Assembly (NCBI RefSeq): GCF_041468085.1
Contig: NZ_CP121014.1
Coordinates: 186,001 to 250,000, forward strand
Source: Tistrella mobilis
Lineage (GTDB): Bacteria; Pseudomonadota; Alphaproteobacteria; Tistrellales; Tistrellaceae
DNA: 64,000 bases
Reading direction: 5' to 3'
Shown here: piece by piece, positions 40,029 to 55,817 of the stretch
Position numbering within the stretch: position 1 is the first letter of the stretch
How the letters are laid out: each line of letters opens with the position of its first letter
Notes under the pieces: model-generated
Database searches by the model: none
Told to the model about the DNA's origin: nothing
Seen by the model: the letters and a program-made list of their open reading frames with translations, nothing else
Program-made: the position numbers and the translations under genes

Positions 40029-40064
40029 GTGAGTTCAAGTAATTTCAATGAGTTGAAGGTAAGG
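40029..40064 (+). promoter_or_regulatory. Leader-proximal segment of CRISPR array 3
   Basis: The bases before the first repeat (AGTAATTTCAATGAGTTGAA, then GGTAAGG) correspond to the segment before array 4 (TGATTTCAAGGAATTGAGGG, then TCAGG). The match fixes the leader at the low-coordinate side of both arrays. The rest of the region back to the ArdC remnant (39836-40028) shows no gene. Confidence 0.65.
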
Positions 40065-41130
40065 GGTTCCCCCGCGTGGGCGGGGATAGACCCGCGGGCG
40101 AAGCGGCAGCCCGCGACGACAAGGCGGTTCCCCCGCGTGGGCGGGGATAGACCCGCGTCCCGTTTTACAGCATCGCCATCAGCCTCGGTTCCCCCGCGTG
40201 GGCGGGGATAGACCCCATGAGCCGTCTCGATGCGCGCAGGCCACGGCGGTTCCCCCGCGTGGGCGGGGATAGACCCTGATGGCCGTCGAGCGCCTCGGAA
40301 GGCACCTCGGTTCCCCCGCGTGGGCGGGGATAGACCCCGATTTTGACTGGCAAGCTGCGTGGCGTACCTGGTTCCCCCGCGTGGGCGGGGATAGACCCTG
40401 TACTACGCAGCGGCCCCGCAGCGCTTGGCGGGTTCCCCCGCGTGGGCGGGGATAGACCCGGCCGGCGCGAGGTCGACGCGGTAGCGCTATCGGTTCCCCC
40501 GCGTGGGCGGGGATAGACCCTTAAAGCTCTTGACCTGAGCCATCTTTCACTCGGTTCCCCCGCGTGGGCGGGGATAGACCCGATCAGGGCGCTGGTGGTG
40601 TTCATGGGATCAGGGTTCCCCCGCGTGGGCGGGGATAGACCCGATATCGGGCAGTCTCTGGCGCTCGGCATGTCGGTTCCCCCGCGTGGGCGGGGATAGA
40701 CCCCGCGCGAGCGCACGGACGCGCGCGGTCAGCGTGGTTCCCCCGCGTGGGCGGGGATAGACCCGATCGCACGGCCGGCGTCCCGGCCGAGGATTTGGTT
40801 CCCCCGCGTGGGCGGGGATAGACCTAAATCGCGAGAAGTGGCACTGACCCGCCGTTTGGTTCCCCCGCGTGGGCGGGGATAGACCCCAACAGTCTCCATA
40901 GGCGCCGGGCTCGATGGCGGTTCCCCCGCGTGGGCGGGGATAGACCCAGCGGGCGGCCCATGCCTTGCCCGTCGACGCCGGTTCCCCCGCGTGGGCGGGG
41001 ATAGACCCTTGATATCTTCCGCGATGTCGCGGAATTCATCGGTTCCCCCGCGTGGGCGGGGATAGACCCTGCGGCCTAAGAAGCCCCCGGTCTTGGACTT
41101 GGGTTCCCCCGCACGGGCGGGGATAGACCC
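40065..41130 (+). CRISPR. CRISPR array 3, type I-E, 18 repeats
   Basis: Eighteen 29-bp repeats (GGTTCCCCCGCGTGGGC start, GGGGATAGACCC end) with 32-bp spacers and an exact 61-bp period from 40065 to 41041, the last at 41102. Seventeen share the CGTGGG centre; the last, at 41102, has CACGGG, the form of array 4. Repeat 14 ends GACCT instead of GACCC. It lies upstream of cas3 in the same orientation. Minus-strand frames spelling repeated GSIPAHAGEP motifs are artefacts. Confidence 0.98.
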
Positions 41131-41229
41131 GCCCAGAAGCAAATACAGAAACCGCACTTTGATTATTTAATAAAATGCGATTTACGGACATTCTTGGGGT
41201 GTCTGACACTCAGGCCCAAGAGGGACACC

Positions 41230-41289
41230 ATGAGCTTCAAGCTCTATCTCCCGGCAATATCTCACGATCCGAAGGTGCCCATAATATGA
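41230..41289 (+). CDS. Possible 19-residue leader peptide of the Xre gene
   Basis: ATG at 41230 opens a 19-residue frame (MSFKLYLPAISHDPKVPII) whose stop overlaps the Xre start as ATGA. An AGAGGGAC box sits 8 bp before it. It could be a coupling peptide or the remains of a toxin partner. Only position and coupling support it. Confidence 0.3.
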   Translation: MSFKLYLPAISHDPKVPII

Positions 41290-41543
41290 CCCCCTCAGAA
41301 TTCTCAGCCCTTCGTAAGGCATTGGGCTACACCCAGGCGCAGCTTGCGGAAGCCCTGGGCATGGGCCGCCGCACCATCATCGACATCGAGGCCGGCACCA
41401 CCCCTGTCCGGATCATCCACATTCTGGCCCTGGAGCGCCTGTCGCTTACCGCGGCCGTGGAACATCGCGACCCGATGCGCGCCACCGCATCCGTCCGCCG
41501 CGAAGCTCTCGACATCACGGCCCTGATCCGTGGCGAAGCCTGA
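41286..41543 (+). CDS. Xre-family HTH regulator
   Basis: An 85-residue protein that is essentially one helix-turn-helix domain (LRKALGYTQAQLAEALGMGR, RTIIDIEAGTTPV), so a DNA-binding regulator of the Xre/Cro type. ATG 41286 is chosen because the domain starts there; an open extension of 37 residues upstream has no HTH features. It stands between array 3 and the I-E cas genes and is a candidate local regulator, or the antitoxin half of a lost pair. Confidence 0.75.
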   Translation: MTPSEFSALRKALGYTQAQLAEALGMGRRTIIDIEAGTTPVRIIHILALERLSLTAAVEHRDPMRATASVRREALDITALIRGEA

Positions 41544-41783
41544 CCGTTCCGCTCCCGCATCACCGGTTCTTCCGCACACGCAAGGGCGAGGGCGGATCCG
41601 GCCGACCGGACCCGCCCGTACCGTGCGACCTACCGAGGGCGTCGGCGCCTCAGCCGCCCGGCAGAGAGAGGATGGTGCCGCCGCCCGGGGCCTGCAAGAT
41701 GAACCCGGCTGCGGCGATCTGCGGCTCTTGGTTGCCGGCACCTGGTTTCCGCCTCACATGATCTGATCCGGGGGAGCATCGCC

Positions 41784-42215
41784 ATGCATTACGCCTATCC
41801 CATCGATCTCACCCCGGAAGCCGACGGCAGTGCCGTCACCGCCCAGGCGCCGGATGTTCCCGGTGTCACCACCTGGGGGCACGACATGGCGGACGCGCTC
41901 CGCAATGTGGCGGATGCTCTGGTGGCAGGGATCGAGGTCTGGATCGGGCGTGGTGACCCGATCCCCATGCCGTCGGCACCCCGGCCCGGTCAGGTGATGG
42001 TGGACCTGCCGCCGCTGGTCGCGGCGAAACTCGCCCTTCATGACGCCATGCGGGCACAGGATATCAGCAAGTCCGCGTTGGCCCGCCGCATCGGTGTGGA
42101 TGAAAGCCTGGTCCGGCGCCTGCTCGACCTGCGGCACCGTTCGCGGCTCGATCAGCTCGAACGCGCGCTCGGCGTGGTCGGGTTGCGCATACAACTGCAT
42201 ATCATTGCCGTCTGA
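41784..42215 (+). CDS. HicB-like antitoxin without HicA
   Basis: A 143-residue protein with a HicB-type N-terminal fold (YPIDLTPEADGSAVTAQAPD then VPGVTTWGHDMADALRNV) and a C-terminal HTH (KSALARRIGVDESLVRRLL). HicB normally neutralises the HicA mRNA interferase and represses its own promoter. No HicA-like frame is seen in the 240 bp upstream, nor between it and cas3. It may be an orphan regulator, plausibly of the cas3 promoter 75 bp downstream. Confidence 0.78.
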   Translation: MHYAYPIDLTPEADGSAVTAQAPDVPGVTTWGHDMADALRNVADALVAGIEVWIGRGDPIPMPSAPRPGQVMVDLPPLVAAKLALHDAMRAQDISKSALARRIGVDESLVRRLLDLRHRSRLDQLERALGVVGLRIQLHIIAV

Positions 42216-42289: not shown

Positions 42290-44935
42290 ATGCCTTACAT
42301 GTTCAGGTCGGATATGACATCGACGCAGCTCGCCCCCTGGGGGAAGGCGGATACCAGAGAGGGCGTGCGCCATCATCTCGCCCATCACTGCATGGATGTC
42401 GCGGCCTGTTTCGAGGCCATGACCGCTCTGCCCGTCCTCAAGGCACGGCTCGATGCCGCAGCCGGGTGGCGGCTCTCCCCGATCGTGATGGCCAGGCTGG
42501 CGGTGCTTTGCTTCCTGCATGACGCCGGCAAGTTGAGCCCGGGATTTCAGGGCAAGGGCTGGCCCGATCTGACCTGGCCCGTGCCGCGGGGCGGGCATGT
42601 TTTCGAAGGCGCCGGAATCTTCAGCCGCGGCCCGCTTGAACCGGCGGGGACCGAATTGATGGCGGATCTGCTGGCCTCGTGGGGGGAGAGTACCGAGGCG
42701 CTGCTCCTGGCCTCCATCTCTCATCACGGCCGCCCGTTCCGGCCGCCGGAGAGCTGGGACACCCCCTGGCCGCCCGTGAAGACCGCGCAGGGCATCTATG
42801 ATCCGCTGCAATCGGCCCGGGAGATCGGGGCGATGCTCCGGCGCTGGTTTCCGCTGGCCTGGCCCGAGGGTGGGGAGGATCTGCCCGACCGGCCGGCCTT
42901 TCAACATTTCTATGCCGGCCTGGTCGCCCTGGCCGATTGGATCGGGTCGGACCGGCGCCTCTTTCCCTTTGTGGACGCGCTGGACCCGGCCTATGCCGCG
43001 CGGGCCCGGCATGTGGCCGCCGATGCCATGGGGCGGATCGGTCTCGATGTGCAGGGTTTGCAGCCGCTGGTCAGCGACCGGACCAGCTTCACGCATCTGA
43101 CCGGCTTCGATCTGCCGCGCCCGGCCCAGGCGGCCGCGGCCCGGATCGACGGCGATGAGCGGCTGGTGATCCTGGAGGCGGAGACCGGGTCGGGCAAGAC
43201 CGAGGCCGCCCTCTGGCGGTTCATCCGGCTGTTTGAACGCGGCGCGGTCGACAGCCTCTATTTCGCCCTGCCGACCCGTGCTGCGGCCGTCCAGCTCCAT
43301 CGCCGCGTTCAGAAGGCGCTGGACCGGGTGTTCGGGGCGGCGGCGCCCGAGGCCGTGCTGGCCGTGCCGGGCTATATGCGCTCGGGCACCGCCACCGGCA
43401 TGGCGCTGCCCGACTGGCGCGTCCGCTGGGATGATGAACAGGATGCCGATGAAGGGCGGCTGCTCGCCCGCTGGGCGGCGGAGAGCGGCCGCCGGTATCT
43501 TGCCGCCATGGTCGCGGTCGGTACCGTCGATCAGGCGATGATGGCGGCGCTCAAGGTCAAGCATGCCCATCTGCGCGGCGCTGCCCTGGCCCGCAGCCTG
43601 CTGGTGATCGACGAAGTGCATGCCAGCGACGCCTATATGACCGGGATCCAGACGCGTCTGCTCGATCATCATCTGGAGCGCGGCGGCCATGCCCTGCTGA
43701 TGTCGGCAACGCTTGGTGCCGTGGCCCGCAGCCAATGGCTGAAACGGCGCCTGCCGGACCTCGACCAGGCAGTGGAGGCTCCCTATCCGGCCGTCTGGCG
43801 CAACACCATCCAGGCGCCCGAAGCCGTCCCGGCCGATGGTCGGCCCAAGCAGGTCTCGATCAGCCTGATGCCGGGCATGGAGGCGGCGGCGGTTGCGGCG
43901 GAAGCGCTTGCCGCCGCCCGCGCCGGCGCACGGGTGCTGGTCATCCGCAACACGGTGGATGCCGCCGTCGATTGCTGGACGGCGATCCGTGACGCCCAGG
44001 ATGCAGACCGTGGGGCCGAAGACCAGGAGACCCCCGACCAGGAGACCCCCGACCTGCTCATGCAGCTTGCCGGCGGCCCGGCCCTTCATCATGGCCGCTT
44101 TGCGGCCGAGGATCGGGTTCTGCTCGATCAGGCGGTCGAAGCCGCCCTCTCCCCCGATGACCGCCGCCCGGGGGGCGTGATCGTCATCGGCACCCAGACA
44201 TTGGAACAGAGCCTGGATATCGATGCCGATCTGCTGCTGACCGATCTGTGCCCGATCGACGTGCTGTTGCAGCGTCTCGGCCGGCTGCATCGCCATCTGC
44301 TGTGGCGGCCGGCGGGGTTCGAACGGCCCCGCTGCCGGGTGATGGTTCCAGCGGACGGCCTCTCCCCTCTGCTGGCGCCGGCTTTCGAGAACGGTCTCGG
44401 CGGCTGGGTGAAGGATGGTGTTCTTCAGGGGATCTATCGCGACCTGTCGATCCTGGAGCTGACCCGCCGTCTGATCCTCGATCATCCGGTCTGGGAAATC
44501 CCGGCGATGAACCGCTATCTGGTGGAACAGGCGACCCATCCCGATCGTATCGACCGCCTCCACGGCGAGGGAAATGATGACCGCTGGGCGCGGTATCGCA
44601 ATAGGGTGACCGGCGCAGACATCGCGAAGACGCTCGGCGCCGGCATGGTGACGATCCGGACCGATCAGGACTGGCTGGATCTGGATCCTTTCCCGGCCAA
44701 GGATGAAGAGCGCATCCGCACCCGCCTCGGCGAGGAAGGCGCCCGGATCGTGTTTCCGGAGCCGGCTCCCGGGCCGTTCGGGGCGCTGGTGTCGGAGGTG
44801 GTGCTGCCGGCGCATTGGCATGGGCCGGATCTGCTACAGACTCCCATGATCGATATCGAACCGACCGGTCTGCGCATCAGAACGGGTGACGCGGCGCTGC
44901 TTTATGACAGGCGCGGCGTTTATAAAGAAAAATAG
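42290..44935 (+). CDS. cas3: CRISPR-associated nuclease-helicase Cas3 (type I-E)
   Basis: An 881-residue HD-helicase fusion that degrades DNA recruited by Cascade. The HD nuclease has HHLAHHCMD at residues 28-36 and FLHDAGK with H77-D78. The SF2 helicase has Walker A ETGSGKT (298-304), DEVH box at 441-444 and motif III LMSATLG. Domain order HD then helicase is standard for I-E. ATG 42290 is uncertain; ATGs at 42299 and 42314 are in frame. It is separated from cse1 by 155 bp, so the Cascade operon has its own promoter. Confidence 0.95.
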   Translation: MPYMFRSDMTSTQLAPWGKADTREGVRHHLAHHCMDVAACFEAMTALPVLKARLDAAAGWRLSPIVMARLAVLCFLHDAGKLSPGFQGKGWPDLTWPVPRGGHVFEGAGIFSRGPLEPAGTELMADLLASWGESTEALLLASISHHGRPFRPPESWDTPWPPVKTAQGIYDPLQSAREIGAMLRRWFPLAWPEGGEDLPDRPAFQHFYAGLVALADWIGSDRRLFPFVDALDPAYAARARHVAADAMGRIGLDVQGLQPLVSDRTSFTHLTGFDLPRPAQAAAARIDGDERLVILEAETGSGKTEAALWRFIRLFERGAVDSLYFALPTRAAAVQLHRRVQKALDRVFGAAAPEAVLAVPGYMRSGTATGMALPDWRVRWDDEQDADEGRLLARWAAESGRRYLAAMVAVGTVDQAMMAALKVKHAHLRGAALARSLLVIDEVHASDAYMTGIQTRLLDHHLERGGHALLMSATLGAVARSQWLKRRLPDLDQAVEAPYPAVWRNTIQAPEAVPADGRPKQVSISLMPGMEAAAVAAEALAAARAGARVLVIRNTVDAAVDCWTAIRDAQDADRGAEDQETPDQETPDLLMQLAGGPALHHGRFAAEDRVLLDQAVEAALSPDDRRPGGVIVIGTQTLEQSLDIDADLLLTDLCPIDVLLQRLGRLHRHLLWRPAGFERPRCRVMVPADGLSPLLAPAFENGLGGWVKDGVLQGIYRDLSILELTRRLILDHPVWEIPAMNRYLVEQATHPDRIDRLHGEGNDDRWARYRNRVTGADIAKTLGAGMVTIRTDQDWLDLDPFPAKDEERIRTRLGEEGARIVFPEPAPGPFGALVSEVVLPAHWHGPDLLQTPMIDIEPTGLRIRTGDAALLYDRRGVYKEK

Positions 44936-44970
44936 TTATTGATTAGATCATATATGCATGAATAGGATCG

Positions 44971-44991
44971 TGACAGAATATGAACCTGTCA
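44971..44991. promoter_or_regulatory. Inverted repeat TGACAG-N9-CTGTCA upstream of Cascade
   Basis: TGACAG (44971-44976) and CTGTCA (44986-44991) form a 6-bp-arm inverted repeat with a nine-base centre, 100 bp before cse1 in an AT-rich promoter-like region. The spacing suits a dimeric HTH protein such as the Xre or HicB-like protein upstream. It is an operator candidate only. Confidence 0.45.
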
Positions 44992-44999
44992 CGCCGATC

Positions 45000-45072
45000 G
45001 GTTCCCCGCTTCTGCGGGATAGCCCTTATTTCTCTTTGATCGAACGGTTTCCCCGCCTCGGTGGGGCACACC
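45000..45072 (+). ncRNA. Degenerate two-repeat mini-CRISPR upstream of cse1
   Basis: Two decayed I-E repeats, GGTTCCCCGC-TTCT-GCGGG then ATAGCCC (45000-45025), and GGTTTCCCCGCC-TC-GGTGGGG then CACACC (45046-45072), flank a 20-base spacer-like segment (45026-45045). Both keep a perfect central hairpin although the bases differ from the array consensus. This arrangement beside the Cascade operon is that of CreA/CreR-type RNAs, which use partial matches to guide Cascade onto a promoter without cleavage. A 49-codon frame (44958-45107) crosses the region and is an alternative explanation. Transcription is not shown. Confidence 0.55.
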
Positions 45073-45090
45073 ATTCGGAGCCTTACGCTC

Positions 45091-46698
45091 ATGCCAAATC
45101 TCCTTGAAAACGAAGTCTTTACCGTCAATCCCCTCGGCCCCTGCACCCTGCCGGGTCTGCTCGCGGCACTTGGAGCCGACGAGGTGGACGATCTGCCGGC
45201 GCTCCGGCCACATCAGGAACCGGCCCTGCACATGACGCTGGTGCAGATCGCGGCTCTTGGCCTGCATCAGGCGGGGTTGACGACGCTGCCGGCGGATGAA
45301 GAGGGCTGGCGGGTCGTGCTGCGTGGCCTGACGCCCGAGCATCCGGACGATGCCCCCTGGTGTCTGGTGGTGGCCGACCCGGCGAAGCCCGCTTTCTTTC
45401 AGCCGCCGGTGCCGGACGGGCTGGTGCTGAAGAACGAGGTTCCGACGCCCGACGGGATCGATCTGCTGATCACCTCGCGCAATCACGATCTGAAACAGGC
45501 TGTCGCCCGGCGCCATGCGGCGGAGGACTGGGCCTATGCGCTGATCTCGGTCCAGACCTCGGAAGGTTATGGCGGGGCCGGCAATCACGGCATCGTCCGG
45601 ATGAATGGCGGGTCGTCCTCGCGCCCGATGCTCGGACTGGCCCCCTTGCCCGACGGGCATGCCGCGCGCTGGCCGCGGCTGGGGGCCCGGTTCCGGCGGG
45701 ATGTCGAACGCCTGCTGGCGACGCGCGATCAGGCGCCCGAGATCGGCGTGCTCTATCCGGCATCGGGCGGGCTGGGTCTCACCTGGACGGCCCCCTGGCC
45801 GGAAGGCCGGCAGCTTGCGCTCGACCGCCTCGATATCTGGTTCGTCGAGGCGTGCCGGCGTATCCGGCTGGAGCCGGCCGGCGACGGGTTTCGCGCCCGC
45901 AAGGGCACGTCCAAGGCGCCCCGTATCGACGGCAAGCACATGAAGGGCATGCTTGGTGACCCCTGGGCACCGGTGCATGTGGTCGAGCAGAAGAGCTTCA
46001 CTCTTTCCAGTGGAAATTTCGACTACGAGACGCTGGTTAAACTGCTGCTGCCGGAGACCTCGCAGGAGTGGCAGCTCCCGCTCCTGGCACGTCCCTCCGA
46101 GGCCGAGAAGAAGCAGACCATGGCTGTGATCGCGCAGGCGCTGTCGCGTGGCAACAGCAAGACCGAAGGCTTCAAGTCGCGGATCATCCCGCTCAGCGGC
46201 AAGGTGGCACGGGCATTCGGGCGTGGGCCGGCGCATGAGGATCTGGTCGTCCTTTCCCGGGCCCAGGTCAAGGACATCGACGATATGAGCCAGGCGCTCC
46301 GCAACGCCCTGGTCCTGGTGGCGGCGGGCGGTGATCACGAGCGGATCAAGAAGGAAACCTACGAATACACCACACCGGCGCGGGCGGCGCTGCGTGACGT
46401 TGCAGACGGGCTGTTCTTCGAGCACCTCTGGAAACGGTTCGAAGCCAGAACCGATGCCGGCGGCAAAGCCGACGGCGATGCCGCAGCGGAGGCCGCCCGG
46501 CAGGCCTTCGTGACGGCGCTTCATGATCACGCGGTCCGGATCTTCGAGGCGGCATTGCCGGAGATCCCGTGCCCGTCGATCCGGCGACCACGGGCGGAAG
46601 CCAGGGCGCGGGAGCTGTTCAGTGCCGGGATGCGCAAACGTTTCCCCTTCATCTCCACCAGCCCCAGCCCCAGGGATGACGATGATGTCGCAGCCTGA
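45091..46698 (+). CDS. cse1: Cascade large subunit Cse1/Cas8e
   Basis: A 535-residue type I-E large subunit, which reads the PAM and recruits Cas3. Family support comes from LRPHQEPALHMTLVQIAALGL near residue 45, ISVQTSEGYGGAGNHGIVRM near 165 and its place before a small Cse2 gene. ATG 45091 begins MPNLLENEVFTVNP, the expected N-terminus; earlier in-frame starts fall in the mini-CRISPR. It overlaps cse2 by 17 bp. Length is slightly above the E. coli protein. Confidence 0.92.
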   Translation: MPNLLENEVFTVNPLGPCTLPGLLAALGADEVDDLPALRPHQEPALHMTLVQIAALGLHQAGLTTLPADEEGWRVVLRGLTPEHPDDAPWCLVVADPAKPAFFQPPVPDGLVLKNEVPTPDGIDLLITSRNHDLKQAVARRHAAEDWAYALISVQTSEGYGGAGNHGIVRMNGGSSSRPMLGLAPLPDGHAARWPRLGARFRRDVERLLATRDQAPEIGVLYPASGGLGLTWTAPWPEGRQLALDRLDIWFVEACRRIRLEPAGDGFRARKGTSKAPRIDGKHMKGMLGDPWAPVHVVEQKSFTLSSGNFDYETLVKLLLPETSQEWQLPLLARPSEAEKKQTMAVIAQALSRGNSKTEGFKSRIIPLSGKVARAFGRGPAHEDLVVLSRAQVKDIDDMSQALRNALVLVAAGGDHERIKKETYEYTTPARAALRDVADGLFFEHLWKRFEARTDAGGKADGDAAAEAARQAFVTALHDHAVRIFEAALPEIPCPSIRRPRAEARARELFSAGMRKRFPFISTSPSPRDDDDVAA

Positions 46699-47263
46699 CA
46701 CTTTCGCGGCGCAGGTCGCGACGCTGTCCGCTCAGCTCCTGAAATTCGACGGCGGCGACCGGGCCGCCCTCCGCCGCATGGAGCCGGACACGCCGGCCCC
46801 CCCGGCCTATTGGCGGCTGGTGACGGTCGCGGGTTTCATCCACTGGTCCGAGGAGAAACAGGCGGTTCTGCGCCGTGTCGTGCGGCAGATGGCCCTGCTG
46901 GTGCCGGCGGGAGAGACCGACAAGGTCACCCTCCACAAGACGGATCGTCCTCTGGGCGCCGTGCTCTGCGATGGCGGTGACGGTGAATGGGCCTCCAGAG
47001 GCGGCGCCCCCCAACCGGTGATATCGGAAGACCGTCTGGCCCGGTTCCTGGCGATGCCGGCGCGCGGACGGGGCGATGCGCTCGACCGGATGTTGCGCGG
47101 CATCGCTCGCAGGCGCAGCCCCGCTCTCGGCATCGATTGCGGCGAGCTGCTCATGCTTGCCCTGCGTCCCGACGACACCGCCCGGCTCAACGACATCGCC
47201 CGCGACTATTACCGCCGTCTCGACCAGGCCACCCGTTCAGCACAGCAGAAAGCGACTGCCTGA
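46682..47263 (+). CDS. cse2: Cascade small subunit Cse2
   Basis: A 193-residue helical protein, which binds along the crRNA-target hybrid in Cascade. The segment RRMEPDTPAPPAYWRLV and C-terminal DCGELLMLALRPDDTARLNDIARDYY fit the family. Start is the ATG-ATG pair at 46682-46687, inside the end of cse1, showing translational coupling. Its stop overlaps the cas7 start (TGATG). Confidence 0.92.
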   Translation: MMSQPDTFAAQVATLSAQLLKFDGGDRAALRRMEPDTPAPPAYWRLVTVAGFIHWSEEKQAVLRRVVRQMALLVPAGETDKVTLHKTDRPLGAVLCDGGDGEWASRGGAPQPVISEDRLARFLAMPARGRGDALDRMLRGIARRRSPALGIDCGELLMLALRPDDTARLNDIARDYYRRLDQATRSAQQKATA

Positions 47264-48411
47264 TGTCCGCGCCCCGTTTCATTCAGATCCACAGCCTTCA
47301 TGCCTATACCGCGGTCCTGCTCAATCGCGATGACAGCGGCCTCGCCAAGCGTCTGCCCTATGGGGGTGTGATGCGGACCCGGGTTTCCTCGCAGTGCCTG
47401 AAGCGGCACTGGCGGATCGAGGAAAGCGACCCCCATGCGCTGGCGAAGCTCGACGGCTTCGTCGACTCGTTCCGCTCCCGCGAGCTGGTGACCAAGAAGG
47501 TCCTGCGGCCGCTCGACGGACGGTTTCCGGCCGAGGTCGTGAAGGCCCTTGAGGCCGAAATCCAGAAGGCGGTCTATGGCGACAAGGGCGCCGACCGAAA
47601 GAACCGTCAGACGCTGCTGCTGGGTGCGCCCGAGATCGACTGGCTGGCGGCAGAGGCCGTCCGGCTGGCCGAGGCTGCGGCAGGTGATCCGGCCGAGGCC
47701 AAGGCCGTGGTGACCGAGTGGGCGAAATCGGTGAAGGACAATCTGAAGGTGCTGCGCGAGCAGACCGCGCTGCCGGGCGGGCTCGCAGCGGCTCTGTTCG
47801 GGCGGATGGTCACCTCCGACCCGGCCGCCAATCTCGACGCCCCGATCCATGTCGCCCATGCCTTCACCGTCCATGGTGAAGAGACCGAGAGCGACTATTT
47901 CACCGCCGTCGACGATCTTTGGGAGCCGGGCCAGGATCATGGCGCCGACACCATCCAGGAAACCGAGCTGACCTCGGGCCTGTTCTACGGCTATGTCGTG
48001 GTCGATCTGCCCCTGCTGATCAAAAATTGCGGCGATGATGCGGCCCTGGCCGGCCGTGTAGTCGAGCATCTGGTGCATCTGGTGGCCGAAGTGTCGCCGG
48101 GGGCCAAGCTGGGCTCGACCGCGCCCTATGGCCGCGCGGGGCTGATGCTGATCGAGGCCGGTGACCGCCAGCCGCGCAGCCTGGCCGGGGCCTTCCGGAC
48201 GGCGCTGTCCGGGTCGGATCTCGACCAGGCCATCACCGCCCTCGATGACGAGCTGGGCCGTATGGATCGGGCCTATGAGACGGGGGAGGCGCGGTGCCAT
48301 CTTTCCCTCGGCGTGGCTTTGGCGGCGGGCGGCGAGCAGGGCTCGCTCAGGACGATCGCTTCCTGGGCCGGGGAGCGGGTCGTGGATGCAGCACCGGAGG
48401 CTGCGGCATGA
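47263..48411 (+). CDS. cas7: Cascade backbone subunit Cas7e (Cse4)
   Basis: A 382-residue RAMP-fold protein that polymerises along the crRNA. Hallmarks are FIQIHSLHAYTAVLLNRDDSG at the N-terminus, RTRVSSQCLKRHWR near residue 45 and HVAHAFTVHGEETESDYFTAV near 205. The ATG at 47263 overlaps the cse2 stop by one base. It overlaps cas5 by 4 bp. Confidence 0.96.
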   Translation: MSAPRFIQIHSLHAYTAVLLNRDDSGLAKRLPYGGVMRTRVSSQCLKRHWRIEESDPHALAKLDGFVDSFRSRELVTKKVLRPLDGRFPAEVVKALEAEIQKAVYGDKGADRKNRQTLLLGAPEIDWLAAEAVRLAEAAAGDPAEAKAVVTEWAKSVKDNLKVLREQTALPGGLAAALFGRMVTSDPAANLDAPIHVAHAFTVHGEETESDYFTAVDDLWEPGQDHGADTIQETELTSGLFYGYVVVDLPLLIKNCGDDAALAGRVVEHLVHLVAEVSPGAKLGSTAPYGRAGLMLIEAGDRQPRSLAGAFRTALSGSDLDQAITALDDELGRMDRAYETGEARCHLSLGVALAAGGEQGSLRTIASWAGERVVDAAPEAAA

Positions 48412-49187
48412 CGCCGGCCGGCCATGACTGGCTGGTGCTGCGGCTGGAAGCGCCGATGGTGGCGTTCGGTGGGGTGGCAATCGACCAGGTCGGTGTCACC
48501 CGTGACTTCCCGGCAGCCTCGATGCTCACCGGTCTGATCGGCAATGCCCTGGGCTGGCACCGGACCGATACGGCCCGGCACCAGAACCTGCAGGACCGGC
48601 TGATCTTCGCGGCCCGGCGCGATGCGGAACCGGTGCCGGCGCGGCTCACCGACATGCAGAATGCCCAGCTCGGCAAAACCGATCGCGGCTGGACCACATG
48701 GGGCCAGCCGGAAGGCCGTGACGGGGCCAGCTATGCGGCCCCCCATCGTCGCCAGCGCGACTATCTGGCCGATCTCTGCGTCACCGTCGTCCTCCGGCTT
48801 GCGGATCGTCCGGAGGATCGGGGGCCGGGGGCGGACAGTCTTCACATCGAGGAGATCGAGGCGGCCTTCCACCGGCCGGCCCGGCCGCTGTTCATCGGCC
48901 GCAAGCCCTGCCTGCCGGTCGGGCCGATCGCGCAGGGGCGGGTCAAGGCCGCCACGGCCCATGCTGCCCTGGGATGCGTGCCGGCGGTGTACACCTCCGG
49001 GGACTGCCGGGCGCTCTGGCCGGTGGGTGACGGCCCGTCCGACCGGCCGGATGCCGACCGTGTGGTGGCGCTCGCCGATCTGCGCAACTGGCTGACCGGC
49101 CTGCATGGCGGCACCCGGATGGTCGTGGAAGGCCGGGTGACGGCACAGATGGCGCCGGCCGCCGTGCAGCAGGGGGGCGCGCCATGA
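48408..49187 (+). CDS. cas5: Cascade subunit Cas5e
   Basis: A 259-residue protein that caps the 5' handle of the crRNA. LVLRLEAPMVAFGGVAIDQ at the start and TRDFPAASMLTGLIGNALG next to it are typical Cas5 elements, as is RRQRDYLADLCVTV. Starts at ATG overlapping the cas7 stop (ATGA) and overlaps cas6e likewise. Confidence 0.95.
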   Translation: MTPAGHDWLVLRLEAPMVAFGGVAIDQVGVTRDFPAASMLTGLIGNALGWHRTDTARHQNLQDRLIFAARRDAEPVPARLTDMQNAQLGKTDRGWTTWGQPEGRDGASYAAPHRRQRDYLADLCVTVVLRLADRPEDRGPGADSLHIEEIEAAFHRPARPLFIGRKPCLPVGPIAQGRVKAATAHAALGCVPAVYTSGDCRALWPVGDGPSDRPDADRVVALADLRNWLTGLHGGTRMVVEGRVTAQMAPAAVQQGGAP

Positions 49188-49969
49188 CCGATCTCCACTT
49201 CATCCGGCTCACGCTGCATCTCGATGAACTCGGCCGCTGGGCAGCCGGGCGCGATCGCGGCTGGGCCGGCCGGGGCGTGCGCCAGACCTTCGATGAAGGG
49301 CGTGCCCTGCACCATCTGCTGGCCGAGACCTTCGGCCAGGGGGTTCTTCAGCCGTTCCGCCTGTTTCCGATGGCCGGCGGAGAGCGGGGCAGTCTCTATG
49401 CCTATGCCACGACCGATGCCGCGGCCCTGACCGAGACGGCCAGGGCCTGCGCCATGCCCGAGATCGAAGCGGTGGTGGATCTCGACCGGATCCAGGGCAA
49501 GCCGATGCCCGGCCACTGGACAGCCGGACGTCGGTTCGGCTTCGATGTCAGGGTCCGGCCGGTGCGTCGGATTTCCCGGCCGCTGCCGCGCGCCGATGGC
49601 GATGCCTTCGCACCCGGTGCCGAACTCGATGCCTTCCTGGTCGAGGCCCTGCGCCGCTTTCCGGAAGGCGCCCGGGACGAGGCCATGCTCCGGGCCGGGC
49701 GCAGCCGGGAGGCGGTCTATGCCGACTGGCTGGCTGAACAGATCGGCACTGCGGCGCAGCTGGAGGCGGGAACCCGGCTCGCCGGCTTCGAACGCCGCCG
49801 CCTGGCCAGGACCGGCCGGGCGCCGGAGGGGCCGGATGCGATCCTCCATGGCACGCTCGTGATCACCGATCCCGAAGCCTTCGCCGCACTGCTCGCCCGC
49901 GGCCTCGGCCGGCATCGGGCCTATGGTTACGGCATGCTTCTGCTCAGGCCGCCGGGCCGGGACGGGTGA
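49184..49969 (+). CDS. cas6e: crRNA endoribonuclease Cas6e
   Basis: A 261-residue double-ferredoxin RNase that cuts the repeat RNA of type I-E arrays. The catalytic His is in RALHHLLAETFG (H43/H44), and the glycine-rich loop near the C-terminus is GLGRHRAYGYGMLLL. Starts at ATG overlapping the cas5 stop. It is the only Cas6 in the window and could also process the mini-CRISPR at 45.0 kb. Confidence 0.95.
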   Translation: MTDLHFIRLTLHLDELGRWAAGRDRGWAGRGVRQTFDEGRALHHLLAETFGQGVLQPFRLFPMAGGERGSLYAYATTDAAALTETARACAMPEIEAVVDLDRIQGKPMPGHWTAGRRFGFDVRVRPVRRISRPLPRADGDAFAPGAELDAFLVEALRRFPEGARDEAMLRAGRSREAVYADWLAEQIGTAAQLEAGTRLAGFERRRLARTGRAPEGPDAILHGTLVITDPEAFAALLARGLGRHRAYGYGMLLLRPPGRDG

Positions 49970-49973
49970 TCTT

Positions 49974-50936
49974 ATGCTCAGCGGTCGTCTGGGGCTGGAG
50001 AAGGCCCGCATTCCGCATCTGGACCGGCACGGCCTGGTCTGGCTCGATCGTGGGCGTCTGGAGGTGGAGGATGGCTGTCTGCGCTTCGTGACCGCCGGCG
50101 GCGGTGAGCTTGCGGCGGGGGATTACCAGATTCCCCATCAGGCGATCTCTATCGTGCTGCTGGGGCCTGGCTCCAGCGTCACCCATGATGCCCTCCGCCT
50201 CCTCGCCCGCCATGGCTGCGCGCTTGCAGCTATTGGCGAGGGGGCCGTGCGCTTCTATACAGCGCCGCCGCTTCTGCCCGACAGCTCCGCCGTCGCCCGT
50301 GCCCAGGTCGCGGCCTGGGCCGATCCCGCGCGCCGGATGGAGGTTGCGCGGGCGATGTATGCGCTGCGCTTCGGCGAGATCGTGCGGACCCGCGACATCG
50401 ATGTCCTGCGGGGGCAGGAGGGCGCGCGGATCAAGCAGAGCTATGCGCTGGCCGCACAGCGCTTCGGGGTATCATGGCACGGGCGCCGCTACGACCGTGC
50501 CAATCCCGAGGCGGGAGACCTCCCCAACCAGGCGATCAACCATGCCGCAACGGCGATGAGTTCAGCCGCCGCCGTTGCTGTGGCGGCCGTCGGCGCAATT
50601 CCGCAGCTGGGGTTCATTCACGAGGATTCAGGGCAGTCCTTCGTCCTCGATATCGCGGATCTCCATCGTCACGATCTTGTGCTGGAGATTGCCTTCGGGG
50701 CCGCCCGGGATGCGCTCAAGACCCATGATCCGATCGAGCGGATCGTTCGCCGGCGGGCCGCACAGCTCTTTCGGCAGAAATCGGTGATCCCGCTGATGAT
50801 CGACCGCATCAAGAGCCTGCTCGCGGTCGATGCCCAAGGGAAAGATGCCCAGGCTAAAGATGATCAGGCGAAAGATGCTCAGGCGAAAGATGATGAACGT
50901 GTGAAGGATGACCTCCGCGTAGAGGATGACGGCTGA
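49974..50936 (+). CDS. cas1: CRISPR integrase Cas1 (type I-E)
   Basis: A 320-residue Cas1. Metal-site residues are H216 in FIHEDSG and D229 in LDIADL, with the acidic residue expected before LPNQAINHAAT. The ATG at 49974 begins MLSGRLGLEKARIP as in other Cas1e proteins. The last ~35 residues are a charged, repetitive tail (DAQAKDD units) not part of the usual fold, arising from a short DNA repeat at about 50835-50910. It overlaps cas2 by one base. Confidence 0.95.
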   Translation: MLSGRLGLEKARIPHLDRHGLVWLDRGRLEVEDGCLRFVTAGGGELAAGDYQIPHQAISIVLLGPGSSVTHDALRLLARHGCALAAIGEGAVRFYTAPPLLPDSSAVARAQVAAWADPARRMEVARAMYALRFGEIVRTRDIDVLRGQEGARIKQSYALAAQRFGVSWHGRRYDRANPEAGDLPNQAINHAATAMSSAAAVAVAAVGAIPQLGFIHEDSGQSFVLDIADLHRHDLVLEIAFGAARDALKTHDPIERIVRRRAAQLFRQKSVIPLMIDRIKSLLAVDAQGKDAQAKDDQAKDAQAKDDERVKDDLRVEDDG

Positions 50937-51241
50937 TGCCCATGGTCGTGGTGGTCACCCGCGATGTGGAGGGCCGATACCGGGGATTTCTCGGCTCCGT
51001 GATGCTCGAACTGTCACCGGGGGTTTATGCTCATCCGCGCATGAATGCCGGCGTCCGGCAGCGGATCTGGTCTGTGCTCGAAGAGTGGTACGGCCATCTC
51101 CAGCGGGGCAGTATCGTCATGACCTGGGCCGACAGCGCCGCCCATGGCGGCCTGGGCCTCAGCGCCCTCGGGGAGCCGCCAAAGGACATCGTATCGCATG
51201 ATGGGATGCTCCTGGTCCGGCGCCTCTTGCGGAAGGGGTGA
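50936..51241 (+). CDS. cas2: CRISPR adaptation protein Cas2 (type I-E)
   Basis: A 101-residue CasE-group Cas2: MPMVVVVTRDVEGRYRGFLG at the start and VYAHPRMNAGVRQRIW in the middle. It forms the Cas1-Cas2 integration complex. ATG at 50936 overlaps the cas1 stop. It is the last gene of the Cascade/adaptation operon, 50 bp before array 4. Confidence 0.96.
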   Translation: MPMVVVVTRDVEGRYRGFLGSVMLELSPGVYAHPRMNAGVRQRIWSVLEEWYGHLQRGSIVMTWADSAAHGGLGLSALGEPPKDIVSHDGMLLVRRLLRKG

Positions 51242-51249
51242 TCGCCAGC

Positions 51250-51291
51250 TCTTTTGATGAAGTGAATGATTTCAAGGAATTGAGGGTCAGG
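51250..51291 (+). promoter_or_regulatory. Short leader of CRISPR array 4
   Basis: Only 50 bp separate cas2 from the first repeat. They include TGATTTCAAGGAATTGAGGG, a sequence also found in slightly different form before array 3. Transcription may come from the cas operon or from a promoter within cas2. Confidence 0.6.
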
Positions 51292-52838
51292 GGTTCCCCC
51301 GCACGGGCGGGGATAGACCCGGCGCCATCTCGCCCATATGGCCACTCAGACGGGTTCCCCCGCACGGGCGGGGATAGACCCCGAAGCCGGCATTGAAGAG
51401 TACCGGTGGCGCAGGTTCCCCCGCACGGGCGGGGATAGACCCGCGGACGCCGATCCGGCCCCGGCCAGCTATGTGGTTCCCCCGCACGGGCGGGGATAGA
51501 CCCGTGTTGGGGATCTGCTACGAGACCCGCAAGACGGTTCCCCCGCACGGGCGGGGATAGACCCGCCTTGAGGCTGCCAAGGGTGCGGCTCTCGATGGTT
51601 CCCCCGCACGGGCGGGGATAGACCGTCGCCCAGGCCTACACGACATCGCCGCTGTCCGGTTCCCCCGCACGGGCGGGGATAGACCCTGCGCCGCCTTGCG
51701 ATACTCGCCCTGGTCCAGGGTTCCCCCGCACGGGCGGGGATAGACCCGGACGCTCAAGCACGACCTGCCATACCGGCAGGGTTCCCCCGCACGGGCGGGG
51801 ATAGACCCGTCCGGGGGGTCAGTCCTCGCGGTCGCTCCAGGGTTCCCCCGCACGGGCGGGGATAGACCCCGCAATGCTTGAGGGTAAGATTACAGGTTCC
51901 CCCGCACGGGCGGGGATAGACCCTTCGACGAGCGCACAATCATCGCTGAAAACGTGGTTCCCCCGCACGGGCGGGGATAGACCCGTCGCAGATGCCATGG
52001 GGCGCAGAGAAGATCAGGTTCCCCCGCACGGGCGGGGATAGACCGCATTTGCAGCGCAAGAGGGCCTTCGGGGGCCGGGTTCCCCCGCACGGGCGGGGAT
52101 AGACCTAGTTCGCGGGTCCAGGACGTTGTCCGCACGCCGGTTCCCCCGCACGGGCGGGGATAGACCCCTCGCCTATGGCGCAGCCGTGCGTGCGGCGCCG
52201 GTTCCCCCGCGCGGGCGGGGATAGACCCGCCCCGCTGTCCGGGACGTCCGGCATGGCGATGGTTCCCCCGCGCGGGCGGGGATAGACCCCCGGCGCTGCT
52301 CGACCCGACCGGCTATACCGCGGTTCCCCCGCGCGGGCGGGGATAGACCCATCCGCAGCTCTTACATGGCCGGCCGGCTCCGGGTTCCCCCGCGCGGGCG
52401 GGGATAGACCCTCTGACGATGCGGCTGCGCGGGCCTATGTGGTGGTTCCCCCGCGCGGGCGGGGATAGACCATACCGTGCAGCTGGACCGTGCCCGTGTT
52501 GCCTGGTTCCCCCGCGCGGGCGGGGATAGACCCTTTTGATGTGGCGGTGGCCGGCCGCGGCTGGCGGTTCCCCCGCGCGGGCGGGGATAGACCCTGCGGC
52601 ATTGTGCGTACTCCGTCAGATGCCGTGGTTCCCCCGCGCGGGCGGGGATAGACCCATGGAGCCGCATACGATCGTCTCCCGCACAGTGGTTCCCCCGCGC
52701 GGGCGGGGATAGACCCTATGGGCTGAACTGACTGGCAAGAGCGAACCAGGTTCCCCCGCACGGGCGGGGATAGACCCCGGAGCCGCCTGCGGCGCCTCAA
52801 GCAGCTAGGGGTTCCCCCGCACGGGCGGGGATAGACCC
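51292..52838 (+). CRISPR. CRISPR array 4, type I-E, 26 repeats in three variant blocks
   Basis: Twenty-six 29-bp repeats with mostly 32-bp spacers (61-bp period). Repeats 1-15 (51292-52139) have CACGGG at the centre, repeats 16-24 (52200-52688) have CGCGGG, and repeats 25-26 (52749, 52810) return to CACGGG. The spacer after repeat 10 (51870-51894) is only 25 bp. A last spacer-like 32-bp stretch follows repeat 26, after which the array stops near an IS5-type element. Leader side is the cas2 side. Confidence 0.98.
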
Positions 52839-52944
52839 TGGGACTGGTACGCCCCGTCGGCTGCGACCCAGGCGGTAAACTCATAAATTCGCTTGGCGTT
52901 TTTTGGCAGCTGTGATTCAAGGCTTCCGAATGAGGGAGCTTTGA

Positions 52945-53373
52945 ATGACGCGCCGCCGCTATGAACTCACCGACCACGAATGGTCGATCATCTCGCCGCT
53001 ACTGCCAAACAAGCCGCGCGGTGTTCCTCGGGTTGATGATCGTCGCGTTCTGAACGGCATTCTCTGGCGCTTCAGAACGGGTTCCCCCTGGGCGGAAGTT
53101 CCAGAACGCTATGGCCCATCGACCACCTGCTACAATCGCTTCGTCCGCTGGCGGAAGGCCGGTGTCTGGGATCGATTTCTCGAAGCGGTTTCCAAGGCTT
53201 ACGACGGCGATATCGTCATGATCGACTCGACCTGTGTTCGCGTTCACCAGCACGCGGCCACGGGAAAAAGGGGGATGGAGACGATGGCGGCATGGGACGT
53301 TCCCGTGGCGGGCTCACCAGCAAGATCCACGCGCTCGTCGATGCCGAAGGCCGTCCTGTCACCCTCCACCTGA
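52945..53373 (+). CDS. IS5-family transposase, N-terminal frame
   Basis: The 5' frame of the transposase: RRYELTDHEWSIISPLLPNK at the N-terminus and the first catalytic Asp in VMIDSTCVRVHQHAA. At 53263-53274 the run GGAAAAAGGGGG allows a -1 shift, giving KKGDGDDGGMGRSRGGLTSK, the usual reading in this group. The part after about 53268 in this frame is not used in the full protein. Confidence 0.85.
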   Translation: MTRRRYELTDHEWSIISPLLPNKPRGVPRVDDRRVLNGILWRFRTGSPWAEVPERYGPSTTCYNRFVRWRKAGVWDRFLEAVSKAYDGDIVMIDSTCVRVHQHAATGKRGMETMAAWDVPVAGSPARSTRSSMPKAVLSPST

Positions 53374-53708
53374 CCGCCGGTCAGGTGGCCGACTGCACCG
53401 AGGCCGAAGTGCTGATCGACAACCTTCGCGAAGGCGATATCCTGCTGGCCGACAAGGGCTACGACAGCAACGCCATTCGCGCCAAGGCTGCCGAGCGGAA
53501 GGCCTGGGCCAACATTCCGCCGAAGACCAACCGCAAGGGTAGCTTCGCTTTCTCCCGCTGGGTCTATCGGCAGCGGAACCTCGTCGAACGGTTCTTCAAC
53601 CGGATCAAGCAGTTCCGCGGTATCGCCACTCGCTACGACAAGCGACCGGAGAACTATCTCGCCGCCGTCAAGCTCGTGGCCGCGAGGATCTGGTGCCTGA
53701 GCTTATGA
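53292..53708 (+). CDS. IS5-family transposase, C-terminal frame
   Basis: The second frame, joined to the first by -1 frameshifting. It carries GRSRGGLTSKIHALVD, the second Asp in LLADKGYDSNAIRA and the Glu in RNLVERFFNRIKQFRG, completing DDE. Both frames are intact, so the element can be active. Confidence 0.85.
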   Translation: MGRSRGGLTSKIHALVDAEGRPVTLHLTAGQVADCTEAEVLIDNLREGDILLADKGYDSNAIRAKAAERKAWANIPPKTNRKGSFAFSRWVYRQRNLVERFFNRIKQFRGIATRYDKRPENYLAAVKLVAARIWCLSL

Positions 53709-54485: not shown

Positions 54486-55199
54486 ATGGCAGCTCCTAAA
54501 TCAAAAACGGGTACGCGCAATGGCGCGGGCCGACGGCTGGCCGGAGAATCGCCAAAGGGAACTGCCGGCTTCAAGCTGCAGTTTCCTGCCGCGGCATCCA
54601 AGCAGTTTACCAGTGCTCCCAAGCAGATGAAGGCACTCCTTCAAGTCTATGGGGACGCTATCGCGCGGAGCCGTCGGGCCGGCCGGCCCGTGAGTTTTCG
54701 TGTCGATGTCGACCCCGAAGGTAAGACCGTTGTGACCCCGGTCGAAGACACGACCACTGGGTCGGAAGTCGCGAGGGAAAGTGCCGCAGCACCGGCCGGG
54801 GATCTCGAAGCGGCCCTGGCTGCGGCGCGGGAACGTGGGCGACTGCGTGCGGCTGAAATCCTGAGGGGCGAGGATATGTTGAACGCGGATGCATTCGCCA
54901 AAATACTCGGAACAACCCGGGTGACGGTGAATACAAAACGCCAGAATGGCCAGATCCTCGGCCTTGACGGTACCAAGCGCGGCTTTCGATTTCCTGTCTG
55001 GCAGCTGGATGCGGAGGGTAAGCCTTATGCTGAACTGGCCGCACTGCATGATCTGCTCGGCAGCCCTTGGGCGATCTACCGCTTCTTGATGCAGCCGCAT
55101 GGGGAACTTGACGGGTTGACCGGGCGTGAGGCCCTGGAGCGTGGGGAGGGGGATGCGGTGCTGGCGGCGGCCGAGAGTGTCGGGAGAGATTTCCGCTAA
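54486..55199 (+). CDS. RES-toxin antitoxin with MbcA/ParS-type C-terminus
   Basis: A 237-residue protein with a basic Gly/Lys-rich N-terminus, a middle segment with a probable HTH (MLNADAFAKILGTTRVTVNTKR, residues ~139-160) and a C-terminal toxin-binding domain (WQLDAEGKPYAELAALHDLL, SPWAIYRFLMQPH, LTGREALERGEGDAVLAAA) of the Xre/MbcA/ParS type. It is followed directly by the RES gene, as in known pairs. It is longer than usual antitoxins of this class by about 90 N-terminal residues. Confidence 0.82.
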   Translation: MAAPKSKTGTRNGAGRRLAGESPKGTAGFKLQFPAAASKQFTSAPKQMKALLQVYGDAIARSRRAGRPVSFRVDVDPEGKTVVTPVEDTTTGSEVARESAAAPAGDLEAALAAARERGRLRAAEILRGEDMLNADAFAKILGTTRVTVNTKRQNGQILGLDGTKRGFRFPVWQLDAEGKPYAELAALHDLLGSPWAIYRFLMQPHGELDGLTGREALERGEGDAVLAAAESVGRDFR

Positions 55200-55817
55200 A
55201 TGGCGAAGACTCCCCCACCGAAAGGCTTTGCGGAGGCGCCCCTTCGTATCTATGAAGTGCCGTCTGGTCAGGTATCTGGTCGTATCTATCTGGGGCGCTA
55301 TCCCGAACCACTCGGTTACGGCAAGACACCGAACCGCTTCAGTGACCCACGGCGGCGGCGTAAACCCGCCAACCGGTTTGGTGTGCTGTATCTCGGCGAG
55401 ACCGTGAAGGTATGCTTCCTTGAAGCGGTCCTCCGAGATCAACGCGACGGCACGATCGGCGATCAGCCGAGCGGAATGTCTGAATTATATGACCGCCATT
55501 ATGCGGAAATCGAAATTGCGAACCCACTCGCAATGGTCGACCTGCGTGATGACGGCGCCATTGTCATGGGTGTGCCGACTGATGTTGCAAAGGCGTCAAC
55601 TCAGACGCTCGCCCGGGCTTGGTCCCTGGCGTTCTACGACCATAAGGACGAACCAGACGGGATTACTTATCCCTCGCGGCTTAACGGCCATACCAGCCTG
55701 GCTGTGTTTGACCGTGCCATAAGGAAGCTCCGGGTCAGGCAGAAGATGCAGCTGATCGGTGCGCCGGGGCTGGCGAGTGTGCTGGATGATTTGAAAGTCG
55801 CTCTCGTTGATTCCTGA
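55200..55817 (+). CDS. RES-domain toxin (NAD+-targeting)
   Basis: A 205-residue RES-family protein. PNRFSDPRRRR, FGVLYLGETVKVCFLEAVLR and the later STQTLARAWSLAFYDHKDEPDGITYPSR cover the conserved Arg, Glu and Ser positions of the fold. RES toxins degrade or phosphorolyse NAD+. Its ATG follows the antitoxin stop without a gap (TAAATG). The 3' end touches the second recombinase copy. Confidence 0.87.
   Translation: MAKTPPPKGFAEAPLRIYEVPSGQVSGRIYLGRYPEPLGYGKTPNRFSDPRRRRKPANRFGVLYLGETVKVCFLEAVLRDQRDGTIGDQPSGMSELYDRHYAEIEIANPLAMVDLRDDGAIVMGVPTDVAKASTQTLARAWSLAFYDHKDEPDGITYPSRLNGHTSLAVFDRAIRKLRVRQKMQLIGAPGLASVLDDLKVALVDS

Follow-up and report, generated by a model that had tools for sequence, protein, structure and literature searches.

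Work by Workman in 2021 is said to have uncovered natural single-guide autorepression of Cas9, exerted through the long-form tracrRNA. PMC13131331 and PMC12948488, which cite Liu et al. 2023 (Cell Host Microbe 31:1481), present CreR as a cas-regulating RNA reported for type I-B, I-E and V-A systems. Repression by CreR is relieved by competing ordinary crRNAs or by anti-CRISPR inactivation (PMC12737573, PMC13131331). In the related CreA RNA, positions 1-5 and 7-11 of the guide pair beside the PAM while positions 6 and 12 do not, and of its two repeats the first keeps the 5′ handle and the second the 3′ handle (PMC8501985).

Here we analyse a mini-CRISPR between cas3 and cse1 in a stretch of 64,000 nt (the window) that sits in a 6.3 Mb genome. 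An earlier, sequence-only reading of this DNA knew of no CreA/CreR-type RNA at I-E loci; this view has to be given up, since CreRs in type I-E are already reported in PMC13131331 (citing Liu et al. 2023), and the core of the element therefore belongs to a known kind.

The cas locus and its arrays

The window carries a complete type I-E system, comprising cas3, cse1, a putative cse2, cas7e, cas5e, cas6e, cas1e and cas2e, flanked by two CRISPR arrays. The gene order around cse1 is that of annotated I-E plasmid loci, and this Cse1 is present in one of the three genomes searched within the order.

40063-41130, + strand: CRISPR array 1, 18 repeats, period 61
42290-44935, + strand: cas3 (TIGR01587, TIGR01596, Pfam Cas3_HD), its stop codon within the target/PAM segment described below
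45091-46698, + strand: cse1 (casA), first gene of the Cascade operon and the predicted regulated gene (TIGR02547, E 6e-17, under the curated cut-off)
46523-51241, + strand: remainder of the operon, putative cse2, cas7e, cas5e, cas6e, cas1e and cas2e, with family matches except for cse2
51290-52870, + strand: CRISPR array 2, 26 repeats, period 61 apart from a single interval of 54

The family match of cas6e falls under its cut-off; the cse2 frame matched no family, and putative cse2 is assigned by position alone. The array repeat reads GGTTCCCCCGC(G/A)(T/C)GGGCGGGGATAGACC(C), with 44 copies over both arrays.

We note several further features of this region. In array 2 (51290-52870), two variants of the repeat, GCACGGGC and GCGCGGGC, occur in blocks, and its single interval of 54 instead of 61 corresponds to a 25-nt spacer near 51870-51895. 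Its distal end is adjoined by an IS4/IS5-family transposase in two overlapping frames (52945-53708; DUF4096, DDE domain), and a possible toxin-antitoxin pair lies at 54486-55817, where a RES-domain protein (55200-55817) is preceded by an ORF without Pfam match. The interval between array 1 and cas3 (41175-42215) encodes an HTH (HipB-like) protein at 41175-41543 and a HicB-like antitoxin with HTH at 41784-42215.

A degenerate mini-CRISPR in the cas3–cse1 gap

The gap between cas3 and cse1 measures 155 nt and holds, at 44999-45072, two degenerate I-E repeats with an intact hairpin in each, just as the sequence-only reading had described.

45000-45026, + strand: degenerate repeat 1 (psiR1), GGTTCCCCGCTTCTGCGGGATAGCCCT, stem 45005-45009/45014-45018, handle ATAGCCCT at 45019-45026
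45027-45045, + strand: guide (psi-spacer), seed TATTTCTCTTT, 19 nt between the 8-nt handle and psiR2
45046-45072, + strand: degenerate repeat 2 (psiR2), GGTTTCCCCGCCTCGGTGGGGCACACC, stem 45051-45056/45061-45066, handle portion lost (GGGGCACACC)
45019-45066, + strand: predicted mature CreR RNA of 48 nt (8-nt handle, 19-nt guide, 3′ hairpin), its ends set by analogy with those of I-E crRNA

Careful analysis of the two units leads to small corrections. Stem 1 (CCCGC/GCGGG, loop UUCU) stands as first read, but stem 2, previously given as CCCCGCC/GGTGGGG, is shortened to CCCCGC/GUGGGG with loop CUCG, because the longer pairing would leave a 2-base loop. Likewise, the spacer-like guide is present but comprises 19 nt (45027-45045) between the handle and psiR2, not the 20 bases read earlier. 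The psiR1 handle ATAGCCCT deviates from the array handle ATAGACCC, and the two repeats are asymmetric: psiR1 retains the 5′ handle, psiR2 the 3′ hairpin without a handle. A canonical CRISPR array (identical 29-nt repeats, 32-nt spacers) was considered for this place and ruled out, the repeats being divergent and the guide 19 nt long.

By itself, the similarity of both units to the repeat is borderline with respect to chance in this window and is therefore not used as an argument for the element. Folding compared with shuffled sequences gave z of −3.1 for psiR1 and −1.5 for psiR2, only the former being clearly better, and a search of Rfam matched no curated family at gathering score.

The guide matches a site at the putative cse1 promoter

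The sequence-only reading had proposed partial pairing of the CreA/CreR type to a cas promoter, and this is borne out by a site at the end of cas3.

44924-44937, − strand: guide target, PAM AAC at 44937-44935 and seed protospacer TATTTTTCTTT at 44934-44924, matching at 10/10 of guide positions 1-5 and 7-11
44939-44968, + strand: putative cse1 promoter, −35 TTGATT at 44939-44944 and −10 TAGGAT at 44963-44968, separated by an 18-nt spacer (read by eye)

Guide positions 6 and 12 mismatch the target. In a pattern search of the 6.3 Mb genome, the motif of PAM plus seed, AANTATTTNTCTTT, occurs once, at this target, and among 20,000 dinucleotide shuffles of the intergenic region a single one scored as well as the real guide-target match. 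As established for E. coli, the last base of a type I-E repeat derives from the PAM; C is the last base in 39 of the 44 array repeats, and a PAM of AAC therefore fits this system. The putative promoter begins 1 nt past the PAM, and the target thus abuts the putative −35 box. A scan for the sigma-70 consensus did not list this promoter (44939-44968). We also note a perfect 7-bp inverted repeat, GTGACAG-N9-CTGTCAC (44970-44992, + strand), near the expected cse1 transcription start, which may be a repressor site (operator) or a 5′ hairpin.

Similar arrangements are seen in other loci. Where the target is on the minus strand, several putative −35 boxes lie just past the PAM; where it is on the plus strand, the site is often at the putative −10 or start. 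At either promoter position, an occupied target site should obstruct RNA polymerase.

The element recurs across type I-E loci

A Cse1 profile built from eight proteins retrieved 80 I-E loci of other species, and 88 loci were examined including earlier ones; a single Cse1 protein used as query against genome contigs gave no matches, and the profile found no loci in viral contigs. The two-hairpin element lies directly before cse1 in 22 of the 88 loci, this locus included. Of the loci whose cas3–cse1 gap is 120 nt or longer, 22/25 have it; of those whose gap is under 60 nt, 0/47 do. Conservation of the hairpins in relatives, raised by the sequence-only reading as a point to look into, is seen across this family: the element has compensated stems in the 21 other I-E loci, the pairing being kept across loci through compensatory changes on both sides. 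A whole-locus search for the combination of hairpin, handle, seed and target returned only the known elements and scattered chance matches, and within the stretch covered by this search, gapless loci therefore do not seem to have a CreR at another place.

The guides vary among loci, with a mean of 4.3 of 12 positions identical, and seed and DNA target change together across genera. An own-cse1 target site is found in 18/22 loci, upstream of the own element in 17 and downstream in L004; the 17 guides reach 9 or 10/10 at a site with an AA PAM that lies upstream of the element, compared with 0/462 mismatched locus pairs reaching 9/10. When the seed register is shifted by up to 5 bases the signal is gone, with a single exception at −1. 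The third PAM base is C in 14 of the 18 matched loci, in agreement with the C at the end of 39 of the 44 array repeats here. Among the 22 loci, L010 and L084 have no convincing target; L040 shows a 10/10 match but with PAM TAC, and L050 a match of 8/10.

Across the 18 loci, matches at guide positions 1 to 12 number 18, 17, 17, 18, 18, 0, 18, 17, 18, 18, 16 and 3. Position 6 of a type I guide is flipped out. It is matched here in 0/18 loci where 25% would be expected (p about 0.006), and since this lies below chance, a mismatch at position 6 may be favoured and not simply tolerated.

The predicted RNA, from the handle to the end of stem 2, falls into two length classes with none between: 48-50 nt in 7 loci including this one (48), and 61-63 nt in 17 loci, to which L087 is added with its second hairpin read by hand. 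Spacer lengths of 32 and 20 nt both satisfy the rule of 6N−4 described for type I-F Cascade (PMC7296934), and the 12-nt difference between the classes would be fitting for two Cas7 steps of 6 nt. Related loci can differ in class: in L097, with 74% Cse1 identity to L026, the predicted RNA measures 49 nt vs 61 nt in L026, and the seed-target match is kept though both sides have changed.

A second layout occurs in L004, L099 and L100, where the mini-CRISPR is free-standing and its target lies downstream, in the presumed cse1 promoter. These free-standing elements (L004, 1100-1220; L099 and L100, about 300 nt before cse1) carry the handle ATGGACCN, and L099 and L100 also have a GC-rich inverted repeat followed by a T-run. 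On the minus strand of L088, at about 9594 and about 400 nt before cse1, a hairpin with handle ATAGACCA shows a 10/10 seed match with PAM AAT; this opposite-strand hairpin is possibly a divergently transcribed CreR. Two further loci probably hold elements missed by the main list: in L080 a hairpin with handle ATCGACCC lies about 287 nt ahead of cse1 and has a 9/10 target, and in L066, about 40 nt ahead of cse1, the second hairpin alone is clear.

Taken together, the element stands far above chance, because its promoter match is unique in the genome and because 21 other I-E loci have the same element in this position, with stem bases that differ and yet remain paired. We consider it very probable that the element is a CreR-type guide RNA with which loaded Cascade represses its own operon.

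An open frame runs through the mini-CRISPR

The guide also lies within a short reading frame.

44958-45107, + strand: leader ORF of 49 codons with a putative start codon, reading through the mini-CRISPR; its stop TGA (45105-45107) overlaps the cse1 start

We followed this frame in a set of 22 leader-embedded loci, which includes L097 and leaves out L004. In 22/22 loci one frame crosses the mini-CRISPR uninterrupted and terminates at the cse1 start, and in most of them it reads the handle as Asp-Ser/Arg-Pro. Relative to the cse1 start, its stop codon finishes at −5 to +17, an ATGA or an 8-nt overlap being frequent. Repeat-preserving shuffles expect 5.2/22 frames to be open vs the 22/22 observed, with a P value that is optimistic because start codons were chosen after inspection. 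In fixed windows, where the choice of start codon is not involved, 19/22 loci have this frame free of stops between −100 and cse1, against 3 and 0 for the other two frames. Taken alone, the leader frame of this window is non-significant, with a null probability of being open of about 0.3; the claim rests on the family.

Most leader start codons, 115-145 nt before the handle, are preceded by a Shine-Dalgarno-like sequence, and GC by codon position ahead of psiR1 is 0.54/0.46/0.61. For the L026–L097 pair of leader ORFs, pS is 0.68 vs a pN of 0.33. The leader peptides are poorly conserved between loci, with weak homology except in three pairs, and the leader ORF matched no protein family and yielded no peptide shared across loci; a toxic peptide is nevertheless conceivable. 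The sequence gives the precursor of the guide the appearance of a translated leader ORF that is coupled to cse1.

The sequence-only reading had named, as a finding that would count against it, conservation of the frame 44958-45107 in place of the hairpins. We find hairpins and frame both conserved across the family, and the frame therefore does not take the place of the hairpins.

Weighing of alternative explanations

The small ORF ahead of the guide invites comparison with an addiction module of the CreTA/CrePA type, in which the short ORF would be a toxin (RNA or peptide) and the guide its antitoxin (CreA) and not a cas regulator. The order in CreTA is identical, namely a targeted promoter, a small gene and psiR1–guide–psiR2, and one example of haloarchaeal I-B CreTA lies directly upstream of a cas operon (PMC8501985). 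Short ORFs with Shine-Dalgarno sequences are indeed present at that place in most loci. However, in all 22 leader-embedded loci the ORF continues through the guide to the cse1 start instead of ending before the guide, and the part preceding psiR1 is only about 14 codons long in this locus, and L040, L054 and L087 likewise have a short one. Moreover, neither a rare-codon run nor a shared peptide was seen across loci, and no terminator-like site was found between guide and cse1. We therefore regard an addiction module as very unlikely.

The same frame could be taken to mean that only a small leader protein or peptide ahead of cse1 is conserved, the repeat-like hairpins being remnants. The frame open in 22/22 loci, the codon-position GC bias and the synonymous excess between L026 and L097 agree with this, whereas the seed-target covariation, the PAM, the position 6 mismatch, the compensated stems and the two length classes cannot be accounted for by a peptide, and the peptide sequences are mostly unlike between loci. 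This explanation appears extremely improbable.

That the element is the functionless remnant of a decaying ordinary CRISPR array, as repeats unlike the array repeat and a guide of less than 32 nt might suggest, is scarcely credible, since it occupies the same place in 22/25 gapped loci, keeps its stems with compensation, and has a guide that matches its own promoter in nearly all loci, uniquely so in this genome.

Proposed mechanism and its implications

Returning to the CreR reading, we propose the following sequence of events. The cse1 promoter would transcribe the leader (psiR1–guide–psiR2) and then the Cascade genes. Cas6e would cut after each hairpin and release a crRNA-like RNA of about 48 nt, in keeping with the stems and the length classes. 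Cascade loaded with this guide would bind the PAM AAC site beside the promoter through 10 base pairs, presumably too few to license cutting by Cas3, and, once bound, would block RNA polymerase and repress its own operon. As described in the CreR literature, repression would be lifted when ordinary crRNAs occupy Cascade or when anti-CRISPR proteins disable it.

The leader ORF may add a further step, of which we are less certain. Ribosomes finishing it might reinitiate at cse1, such that leader translation feeds Cascade synthesis, and leader translation might compete with cutting by Cas6e; alternatively, its purpose could be to keep Rho off the leader. We offer tentatively, and with slightly more doubt than conviction, that in this lineage of type I-E systems an autoregulatory guide is housed in a translated leader ORF, whose transcript would be either translated (Cascade) or cut by Cas6e (guide), a translation-versus-processing switch atop promoter autorepression.

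The analysis thus points to a type I-E CreR in an alphaproteobacterium, and the DNA target of this CreR, 14 bases long, is predicted precisely. Because about twenty natural seed-target pairs are at hand in which RNA and DNA have changed together, autorepression by Cascade becomes directly testable; experiments can likewise probe two other constraints, the length classes (about 49 and 61 nt) and the mismatch found without exception at position 6. A simple anatomical rule also emerges: among the sampled loci, where cas3 and cse1 are 120 nt or more apart, a CreR is nearly always present. If the leader ORF is translated, Cas6e processing, guide supply and Cascade translation would be linked in one transcript. 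A literature search, with the full texts of Liu 2023 and Shmakov 2023 outside its scope, found no description of a guide in a leader ORF ending at the cse1 start or of such a layer of CRISPR control, and the leader-ORF embedding of a CreR guide appears to be undescribed.

Comparison with known systems

One resemblance is to Racr, the phage RNA anti-CRISPR (PMC10651486), which likewise mimics a repeat outside arrays. Racr, however, is a phage-encoded solitary repeat that inhibits immunity, whereas the element described here is host-encoded and has two repeats and a guide. The natural single guide of Cas9 is similar in principle, as a CRISPR-derived RNA redirects the effector to repress its own promoter, but it belongs to type II and is a different RNA.

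CreA of CreTA (PMC8501985, PMC9458426) shares the psiR1–guide–psiR2 architecture, the pairing rule and the asymmetry of the repeats. CreA holds down a toxin, while the promoter targeted here reads into cse1, without an evident toxin; and CreA is of type I-B with a PAM of TTC, in contrast to type I-E with AAC in this locus.

The closest counterpart is CreR. As in CreR, (I) a mini-CRISPR of two degenerate repeats lies beside cas genes of the same subtype, (II) the guide has limited seed complementarity, with a PAM, at a cas promoter (here predicted by eye), and (III) the effector would repress its own expression, as we infer for this locus. What appears to set the present element apart from CreR as reported is that its guide is encoded inside a leader ORF, the stop of which overlaps the start of cse1.
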